A stretch of DNA of 64,000 nucleotides from Planococcus maritimus (GTDB lineage: Bacteria; Bacillota; Bacilli; Bacillales_A; Planococcaceae), in the NCBI RefSeq assembly GCF_001687625.2, contig NZ_CP016538.2, positions 1,270,501-1,334,500 of the forward strand, read 5' to 3'. The stretch's first letter is position 1, and the number at the start of each line of letters is the position of its first letter. This document shows, piece after piece, positions 57,109 through 58,594 of this stretch. Made by a program: the position numbers and the translations under genes. The notes under the pieces are model-generated. The model was not told the origin of the DNA. It saw only the letters and a program-made list of their open reading frames with translations, and did not search any database.

Positions 57109-57140
57109 AAGCCCCTCCAATTTTGTGGAGGGGTTTTTTA
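57109..57140 (+). terminator. ysdC terminator
   Basis: CCCCTCCA / TGGAGGGG with loop ATTTTG followed by six Ts. Confidence 0.9.
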
Positions 57141-57164
57141 TTGGGTAAAGCCGAAGCGAAATGG

Positions 57165-57290
57165 GCAAAAAAGCGTTTGTATTTCGCAAACAAAATAAGC
57201 CGATTGGCAAACAGCCAGAGAAATACCACAAAAAAATCAAAGGTTTTTGCAAACAACGGTAACTATTCCACAAACAAAATGATCGGAAAA
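57165..57290 (+). repeat. Six-unit array of degenerate 21-bp repeats (array 1)
   Basis: CAAA recurs with a period of exactly 21 bases at 57165, 57186, 57207, 57228, 57249 and 57270. The consensus with array 2 is RCAAAHAA-N8-ATTYC. An open frame (57123-57356) reads the units as heptads such as YFANKIS, but there is no good RBS. It ends 76 bases before the NERD gene. It is not a CRISPR: units have no identical repeat and no spacers of constant length. Confidence 0.85.
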
Positions 57291-57366
57291 GTCCATAAGC
57301 GCCAATTGGTGGTGAAGGAGGCCTCGCGGAATGCTATACTTCAACTATCATATTAGGAGGTGTTCA

Positions 57367-58329
57367 ATGGGTAAAAAAGAACTAGCATTATTATCTGAAA
57401 TAGAGTCGCTGGAGAGACTGTTGTATCGATTGCCTGACAATCATTCAAGCCGGGAATTTATCCAAGTTGAAATTTTCAAAGCGGTTGCCGGAAAAAGAGG
57501 CGAAGAGAGGCTGTTCCGGAAGATGATTGAATTTGAGATAGAGGAGCAGTACCGGTTTTTAAAAAATATTTGCTTGTCGAGAGGGCAATGGAAAGTCCAA
57601 ATGGACGGATTGTTACTGACGGAGCGCGGGGCGATCGTCATCGAATCGAAAAATATTAGCGGCCAACTTTATTTTGATGATGACACCGGTGAATTTTCAA
57701 GAACCAATACAGAATGCGTAAAAACGATAATGGAGGACCCGACAATCCAATTGAACAAGCATATTCGTTTCTTGACCTTGTTTTTCAAACAGCAGAATAT
57801 CGATTTGCCCATTTCAGGAATTGTCGTGTTTACATCTAAACAATGTGAATTTTTGGCAAAGCCCAAGAAACACCACATCTGCAAAACCTATCAATTGGTC
57901 GATTATTTGTTCGACATCCTTCAGGAATTCCCCCTAAAAAGCAAACCTCAAGATTTATCGGAAATTCAGAAACTCCTCGAGCAATCTCGTACCCCTTATA
58001 AGAGAAAACCATTGTGTCAATTATATTCAATAGAAGAAACCGAGCTGTTTACGGGCATCTTGTGCACAAGCTGTAAAAGTCTTAACATGATGCGAAAACA
58101 TAAGAAAGGATGGTTGTGTGCCGACTGCCAAGCGGTAGATCTGCTCGCTTTTCAACATACAGTCCAGGAATATTTTTCGCTGATTAATACACAGCTTAGC
58201 AATAGGCAACTCCGGAAATTCTGCAAGCTCGAATCGCCTTATGTTACTTCCCGTCTGTTGAAAGCATATGATTTAGAGACTGCTGGTGCTTTGCGCAACC
58301 GGACATACTTTTTAAAGAAAAATGACTAG
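57367..58329 (+). CDS. NERD-domain (nuclease-related) protein with C-terminal zinc ribbon
   Basis: A 320-residue protein. The NERD domain (about 35-150) has GEERL, then the D...ESK arrangement of PD-(D/E)XK nucleases in QMDGLLLTERGAIVIESKN. The C-terminal half has a four-Cys ribbon, CTSC...CADC (about 235-260), and a basic tail. NERD proteins are presumed DNA-processing enzymes; the substrate is unknown. TAGGAGGTG precedes the ATG at 57367. It is absent at this locus in B. subtilis and is flanked on both sides by 21-bp repeat arrays. A terminator follows its stop. Confidence 0.82.
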   Translation: MGKKELALLSEIESLERLLYRLPDNHSSREFIQVEIFKAVAGKRGEERLFRKMIEFEIEEQYRFLKNICLSRGQWKVQMDGLLLTERGAIVIESKNISGQLYFDDDTGEFSRTNTECVKTIMEDPTIQLNKHIRFLTLFFKQQNIDLPISGIVVFTSKQCEFLAKPKKHHICKTYQLVDYLFDILQEFPLKSKPQDLSEIQKLLEQSRTPYKRKPLCQLYSIEETELFTGILCTSCKSLNMMRKHKKGWLCADCQAVDLLAFQHTVQEYFSLINTQLSNRQLRKFCKLESPYVTSRLLKAYDLETAGALRNRTYFLKKND

Positions 58330-58357
58330 CTTTTCGCGAACTGCGGAAAGCTTTTTT
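58328..58357 (+). terminator. NERD gene terminator
   Basis: AGCTTTTCGC pairs with GCGGAAAGCT around GAACT; six Ts follow. It overlaps the stop codon. Confidence 0.82.
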
Positions 58358-58366
58358 GGGGGGGTT

Positions 58367-58492
58367 GCAAATAAATCGATGTATTCCGCAAAAAAAGAAT
58401 CGTATTCCACAAATAACTTAACGAATTTCGCAAATAACTTAATACATTCGGCAAACAATCATCCCTATTCCGCAAACAAGTCGAAACTCCTC
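58367..58492 (+). repeat. Six-unit array of degenerate 21-bp repeats (array 2)
   Basis: Units start at 58367, 58388, 58409, 58430, 58451 and 58472, again exactly 21 bases apart, in the same orientation as array 1. CAAA is invariant in all twelve units of the two arrays; the first base is G in nine and A in three. The frame 58322-58498 is open and would give heptads such as YSANKSK, but with a weak RBS; coding is doubtful. Confidence 0.85.
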
Positions 58493-58594
58493 AATTAAAA
58501 AGTTGCTTCTACATCAGTTTCACTTGATATAATGTTAAGTTTAATGTACATTATGTAATGTAAAGATAACATTTTTGAAGAAAGGATGAAGCGG

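Follow-up and report, generated by a model that had tools for sequence, protein, structure and literature searches.

The arrays of phased direct repeats that bracket a NERD-domain gene in Planococcus maritimus belong to a larger set of NERD loci in Bacilli, and comparison among these loci shows that the core of an array follows the recognition helix of the protein encoded beside it. The locus was found in a window of 64,000 nucleotides, by which we mean the whole stretch of DNA that was analysed, and the source replicon is a 3.28-Mb chromosome in a single contig. Gene and arrays probably form one module, in which a C-terminal winged helix would bind its own phased array and bring a nuclease domain there. 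To our knowledge, the NERD domain is common and has few assigned functions. One large NERD branch would have a probable DNA target beside the gene, in dozens of versions, and its function is therefore directly testable. The same loci offer a natural data set for the recognition code of winged helices, in which target and reader co-evolve. If it is true that the arrays spread or restrain the nuclease, they would represent a new kind of selfish or conflict element, carried by ordinary chromosomes of Bacilli.

The NERD gene lies between an M42 peptidase gene on one side and a small XRE gene on the other (Table 1). The preliminary description reported two six-unit arrays in one orientation bracketing the gene, with CAAA at exact 21-bp steps in 12 of 12 units, and we confirm both statements (CAAA at 57166...57271 and 58368...58473). 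Both arrays are oriented like the gene, whose start codon is the ATG at 57367, preceded by AGGAGGTG. Array 1 starts 20 bp after the T run of the M42 terminator, which is absent from the matches of the terminator pattern scan, and array 2 starts ~10 bp behind the stem of the NERD terminator. Runs of six CAAA spaced by exactly 21 bp occur twice in the window, runs of at least four at this period are seen in none of its 200 mononucleotide shuffles, and comparable runs at periods of 18, 19, 20, 22, 23 and 24 bp were not found in it. TRF picks up part of array 2 only, and the single match of an Rfam scan (E 0.98) was disregarded.

Table 1. Positions of features at the NERD locus, numbered within the window
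Feature	Positions	Strand	Basis or description
Intrinsic terminator of upstream M42 peptidase gene	57112..57139	+	CCCCTCCA-ATTTTG-TGGAGGGG-T6; read directly from sequence
Array 1	57160..57285	+	six 21-bp units, some degenerate; core ATTCCRCAAAYAA + 8
NERD - zinc ribbon - winged-helix gene, 320 aa	57367..58329	+	PF08378; AlphaFold2 model
PD-(D/E)XK nuclease domain, residues 40-190	57484..57936	+	model and alignment
Zinc ribbon C233, C236, C251, C254	58051..58134	+	cysteines invariant in 35/35 homologs
Winged helix	58135..58326	+	secondary-structure order of model
Intrinsic terminator of NERD gene	58328..58357	+	pattern scan; stem 58328-58352 plus T run
Array 2	58362..58487	+	six 21-bp units; orientation as array 1

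Across 326 units from 68 arrays of at least three units each (exact duplicates dropped, orthologs retained), the consensus is a core A-T-t-C-c-G-C-A-A-A-Y-A-A-a followed by seven near-random bases. Complementarity within or between spacers shows no excess in the same 326 units, and hairpins formed from adjacent spacers were rejected as a candidate because they gave no signal.

In a Pfam scan, the protein encoded between the arrays matches NERD only (PF08378; E 7e-16, 59.1 bits against a gathering cut-off of 22.1), and the nearest named NERD protein, from P. maritimus, is 95% identical. In an AlphaFold2 model with a mean pLDDT of 92, a PD-(D/E)XK nuclease domain is followed by a zinc ribbon and, at the C-terminus, by a winged helix. 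The conserved PD-(D/E)XK catalytic residues are present (D80, E93 and K95, the same in all 35 homologs aligned), and the protein is likely to be a nuclease. Secondary-structure elements of the winged helix follow the order H261-272, E276-278, H279-286, H291-299, E303-306 and E313-316, and the recognition helix was taken as residues about 287-300. Searched with either the whole model or its C-terminal part, Foldseek returned no match below E 0.001; weak matches of the C-terminal part include TubR, BigR, PagR and RbkR (E 0.2-0.3). Of the two alignments built from 36 loci, A2 leaves out L130 and L145, and A3 leaves out L115, L117, L130, L138 and L145 (L and G numbers are our own labels for loci and genomes).

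Arrays go with the C-terminal zinc ribbon and winged helix and not with NERD as such, as a comparison of 30 loci shows. They are the matches listed when 20 genomes, drawn from nine genera, were searched with PF08378. Arrays adjoin 16 of 17 intact genes that have the C-terminal domain and 1 of 13 called without it (p 2e-6). Two loci in the latter group, L274 with an array and L264 with none, are broken members whose C-terminal domain lies in a neighbouring frame, and the corrected count is therefore 17/19 with the domain versus 0/11 without. No such piece was found in the frames neighbouring the other 11 genes called without the domain. One locus, L263, has the C-terminal domain and no array.

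A NERD protein at least 58% identical to that of the window is encoded by 21 of 46 genomes of the genus. Arrays are present on both sides in all 20 complete loci, and the upstream array also in the 21st, L068, which is cut by a contig end, so the bracket is kept in close relatives wherever the locus is complete. Only two and three units are recognisable in the arrays of L082. A third array is found in L078, L080 and L081, in the last two accompanied by a copy of the NERD terminator hairpin. A strict two-unit pattern matches 26 of the 46 genus genomes and 3 of 215 other family genomes, and the reversed control pattern has no match in the same genomes. The proposed co-occurrence of arrays and NERD genes is borne out in that the strict motif is found in 21/21 genomes with the close ortholog versus 5/25 without it (Fisher p 1e-8, uncorrected for phylogeny). 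Arrays without NERD, which the preliminary description had named as a reason to doubt the link, do exist (two loci in this genome and 5/25 congeners lacking a close ortholog), but the association with NERD persists. For type A the motif thus occurs, by a pattern that overlooks worn arrays such as those of L161 and L173, in 5 of 25 genomes despite the absence of the matching NERD type, and for type B it does so in 10 of 40. Five of the 46 genomes (G097, G106, G113, G119 and G120) encode no NERD member, and searches of these five for both array types gave no match.

Within the arrays of close orthologs, the proportion of differing CAAA.AA sites is 0.057 for array 1 (nine loci) and 0.024 for array 2 (seven loci), that of spacer sites is 0.227 and 0.180, respectively, and that of NERD third codon positions is 0.173 (eight loci). 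These proportions indicate that selection holds the array cores and that spacers change about as fast as third codon positions.

Genomes of the genus contain up to 11 NERD homologs each. Paralogs under 58% identity that we examined mostly have no CAAA-type array and have arrays of their own type. A motif-free search, requiring an 11-base seed to recur at 19-22 bp, detected chains of at least three units in a flank at 79 of 82 NERD loci (close orthologs included), with arrays in both flanks at 37 and in one at 42. Three loci gave no such chain, and for L065 and L070 among them the type-A matrix does detect arrays. The set excludes L068 (contig end), duplicates and L112, and it holds 81 distinct loci, because L146 and L229, which are equally long, seem to represent one contig; L145, whose frame is broken, was excluded from motif statistics. 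In 100 shuffled flanks, chains never exceed two units, and in real DNA chains of at least three units occur in 0/75 window tiles and 2/58 other-locus tiles, one being a low-complexity repeat and the other resembling a further array. As a caution, ATGTTA boxes in the XRE promoter at the M42 locus also form three-unit chains in several relatives; among the listed seeds of the 82 loci there is no such box.

Upstream and downstream arrays of one NERD gene share core and orientation, and the core differs between paralogs. Where orientations are comparable, they are the same at 33 loci and opposite at 0. The upstream core is best matched by its own downstream flank in 28 of 38 loci (12/13 close orthologs and 16/25 others, failing in 10/38), when compared with the downstream flanks of 41-60 loci under 60% identical. 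Median distances are 152 bp from the end of the upstream array to the start codon and 52 bp from the stop codon to the downstream array. Among 524 spacings, 374 are 21 bp, 144 are 20 bp, five are 19 bp and one is 22 bp, with a mean near two turns of DNA. Arrays of 30, 37 and 39 units adjoin NERD homologs in other genera (L242, L261 and L304), and L061, in a genome of another genus (G233), has four CAAA-type arrays within about 1.2 kb. A full-length profile at E 1e-30 or better matches 233 of 261 family genomes in 16 of 19 genera, and in an even draw of the class it matches 23 of 151 genomes, 11 of them outside the family. In seven other Bacilli families, arrays are found at 13 of 15 NERD loci, some from genomes that overlap with those examined earlier.

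Similarity between array cores correlates with similarity of the recognition helix (Mantel rho 0.378) and of the nuclease (0.306) among 57 representatives, in tests that remove phylogeny only partly. For upstream arrays (41 representatives), helix given nuclease retains a rho of 0.370 (p 0.001), and nuclease given helix has 0.065 (p 0.126). The corresponding values for downstream arrays are 0.281 and 0.233 (p 0.001). Linkage may explain part of the correlation, because the downstream array adjoins the winged-helix codons; the upstream array adjoins the nuclease end of the gene, where the core remains predictable from the helix. Among pairs with nuclease identity of at least 65%, median core similarity is 0.94 when helices agree (n=24) and 0.77 otherwise (n=114; p 1.5e-8, the pairs being non-independent).

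Two pairs of loci resemble natural swap experiments. The proteins of L136 and L133 have an identity of 90% over their whole length, 97% within the nuclease and 64% in the helix (SPFVAS versus SRSVAT), and their cores, GAACGCAAATAAA and GAACGCGCATAAA, differ at two neighbouring bases. In L138 and L085, residues 40-165 are 96% identical, the winged helix is 33% identical and the core is changed. Arrays are known only downstream in both pairs, and one recombination tract could swap winged helix and downstream array together, without function. The upstream-array test and another pair, L131/L134, in which both flanks differ, speak against this account. There are exceptions to the rule, among them L080 and L081, each of which shares the core of L074 with a different helix. 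Read from a table, with no fitted model, several helix types have preferred cores. S-x-Y helices pair with a GCAA core, and the same pairing is seen in another genus, where overall identity is about 34%; SPA helices pair with ACTGYAAA (two loci). SRS/SRA helices are found mostly with GTGCRTA or CGCGCATA, with L108, L111 and L113 as exceptions, and RHxxKR helices mostly with TCATAG, from which L109 differs. The earlier suggestion that the repeats may be a binding array linked to the nuclease is supported by the conserved bracket, by the array types peculiar to paralogs and by cores that follow the helix.

Solo arrays are found in this genome at two further loci of the same motif, both without NERD; only one NERD gene is present in the genome. 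The array at 614.7-614.9 kb has nine units, with one spacing of 19 bp, and that at 2471.3-2471.4 kb has five units. An intergenic repeat, GGGTGAAGCGAAGC...GCTCAACCC, lies near both (L032:7500-8150, or 614.5-615.15 kb, and L033 near 2471.6 kb), and by eye similar stretches are seen in the array-less M42 loci L150 and L152. The L032 array lies beside a DUF4385 gene, its neighbouring units have similar spacers, and its length varies in G096 and G114; this array and its counterparts look as if they had grown by unit duplication. In L040, two type-A arrays in one orientation (1500-1617 and 2496-2654) bracket NUDIX and HIT genes instead of NERD.

The intergenic site downstream of the M42 gene was read in 24 further genomes that lack a close ortholog, leaving out G085, which has no true M42 ortholog among its matches. 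Eight have neither NERD nor any array beyond the XRE boxes, five have a solo CAAA-type array of two to five units, some of them worn, and no NERD, ten have arrays of another core, followed in seven by a different NERD gene, and one (L165) is cut by a contig end. From genome to genome, one intergenic site therefore carries arrays of different types, solo arrays or nothing at all. In no genome examined did we find a fresh insertion together with its clean empty site. The solo array L161 has been considered as a recombination product of arrays 1 and 2, which is half supported, its left half being clearly array 1. Among 30 rows of solo arrays elsewhere, the number of units is five to seven in 20, and 21 are free of any overlapping ORF of 110 aa. 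With ORFs of at least 110 aa called mechanically, 12 of the 23 solo arrays that are flanked on both sides lie between convergent ORFs.

The preliminary description also named the XRE protein as a possible partner, which is unlikely, given that the XRE gene, by eye, follows M42 in relatives without NERD or arrays, such as L153. Its promoter region (window about 58515-58560) contains ATGTTA-type boxes at 21-bp spacing, and three such boxes in a row are found in L150, L152, L161, L167, L172 and L173. The boxes are a second phased direct repeat at the locus, independent of NERD.

The nearest known arrangement is the REPtron, in which cognate repeats lie on either side of a chromosomal RAYT (TnpA-REP) gene, every type of gene having a repeat of its own, repeats are also dispersed intergenically, several types occur per genome and inheritance is mostly vertical (PMC6006769). 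NERD genes resemble REPtrons in these respects, with a cognate repeat that flanks the gene and is also dispersed, but they differ in the nature of both enzyme and repeats. The REPtron enzyme is of the HUH-Y1 type, which was not found here, where a PD-(D/E)XK domain is joined to a winged helix. Unlike hairpin REPs, the repeats described here are phased direct repeats with a non-palindromic core, in arrays of about six units that often occur at both ends of the gene.

Other known systems share single features with these loci. Plasmid iterons and TubR-tubC centromeres are direct repeats read by winged-helix proteins, and TubR is among the weak fold matches. Unlike a plasmid iteron origin, however, the locus is chromosomal, its arrays bracket the gene, and no Rep domain was found in the seven proteins scanned at and near the locus. 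Restriction enzymes with swappable target-recognition domains keep the nuclease core while specificity domain and site change, much as L138 and L085 keep the nuclease core and change winged helix and array core. In contrast to restriction sites, the sites here are clustered beside the gene and not scattered singly, and the seven proteins include no DNA methyltransferase. In CRISPR arrays, which come with cas genes, repeats are about 21-40 bp long and the unique spacers longer, whereas these units have a 14-bp core and a 7-bp spacer, and no cas gene was found among the same seven proteins. Within the NERD family itself (PF08378), to which the protein belongs, the 11 members examined that have no zinc ribbon and winged helix lack arrays. 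Our literature search, which most subscription papers lay outside, found no description of such a nuclease/array system. A paper on YprA helicases (PMC12458937) reportedly contains both NERD and direct repeats, and the staphylococcal NERD protein SmdA is said to be the subject of one paper (PMC9040797). The covariation of helix and site points to an undescribed partnership of nuclease and site.

In the module that we propose, each array unit would bind one winged helix, and binding of the cognate array by this domain is very probable. Because the two-turn period sets proteins on one face of the DNA, binding may be cooperative, and the bound proteins could bridge arrays 1 and 2. Binding would place the PD-(D/E)XK nuclease at the array and at the array borders. 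Whether the nuclease acts at the arrays is a nearly even call, on which we lean slightly to the negative. Sites might be kept, and occasionally copied, lost or recombined, via the activity of the protein and be inherited with the chromosome. Arrays and gene would then behave as a RAYT/REP unit, with one gene per site type. It is possible, and somewhat doubtful, that such a life cycle of array upkeep and spread is the main reason for the existence of the module. Tentatively, the loci could be examples of one class of element, present in the chromosomes of several Bacilli families, in which a PD-(D/E)XK nuclease is propagated and kept by the phased arrays of its own reader. Specificity would change rapidly and in a modular way, reader and arrays together, giving a readable protein-DNA code, and the class would be a counterpart of REPtrons evolved from unrelated parts.

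Autoregulation alone seems unlikely to account for these loci. The arrays would be operators through which the protein loops or represses its own gene, solo arrays would be further regulon sites or relics, and the nuclease would work elsewhere. Winged helices are common regulators, the arrays are close to the gene at the median distances given above, and the weak Foldseek matches are consistent with such a role. Phased operators are also at hand in the genus, as the XRE promoter has three boxes at 21-bp spacing in several relatives. Sites beyond the gene's own terminator are nevertheless odd for an operator, as are arrays of 30-39 units, and a promoter is not expected at the solo arrays between convergent ORFs. 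We also think it quite improbable that the arrays restrain or direct a harmful nuclease, as self-mark, decoy or addiction, in which case the specificity swaps might reflect an arms race or avoided cross-talk between paralogs. PADLOC profiles give 0 matches at E up to 1, and NCBIfam gives only a sub-threshold match to MAD6 (18.9 bits against 460). Moreover, 5 of 46 genus genomes do without any member, arrays exist without the gene, and no close relative was found on mobile elements: plasmids, phages and viral contigs have no match to the window protein (tblastn, E 1e-5), to the type-A pattern or to the alignment.

There is little to recommend the idea that another host factor, such as a nucleoid, replication or partition protein, binds the arrays and that NERD genes share its favoured intergenic sites. 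Solo arrays without NERD fit this idea, and the cores bear what we take to be a loose resemblance to other bacterial boxes, DnaA-like or Spo0A-like boxes having been considered. However, the two arrays at one gene share a core unlike those of other paralogs, NERD genes without the C-terminal domain carry no arrays (0/11), and the core tracks the NERD helix even in the upstream array. To neutral minisatellites or a degenerate heptapeptide-coding sequence we give almost no credence, in view of conserved cores beside spacers that drift near the third-codon rate. As first described, 21 bp corresponds to seven codons, and we confirm that each of the two arrays in the window has a frame without stops; the heptad frame nevertheless has stops in array 1 at 6 of 9 orthologous loci and in array 2 at 6 of 8 (own locus counted), so the proposed heptapeptide origin does not hold. 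Heptapeptide coding is also ruled out by the 144 of 524 spacings of 20 bp in homologous arrays.

Of 116 arrays, 31 have a conserved hairpin, CGCTTTTCGCNNGCGAAAAGC (at most 4 mismatches), no more than 90 bp downstream; these arrays have several different cores, and their loci include L073-L084, L099 and L129-L141. Elsewhere, 15 copies occur in 129,615 bp of flanks. It is absent from the window (at most 3 mismatches) and, as a longer pattern with 1 mismatch, from this genome. G081, a genome with 11 NERD paralogs, contains 30 copies.
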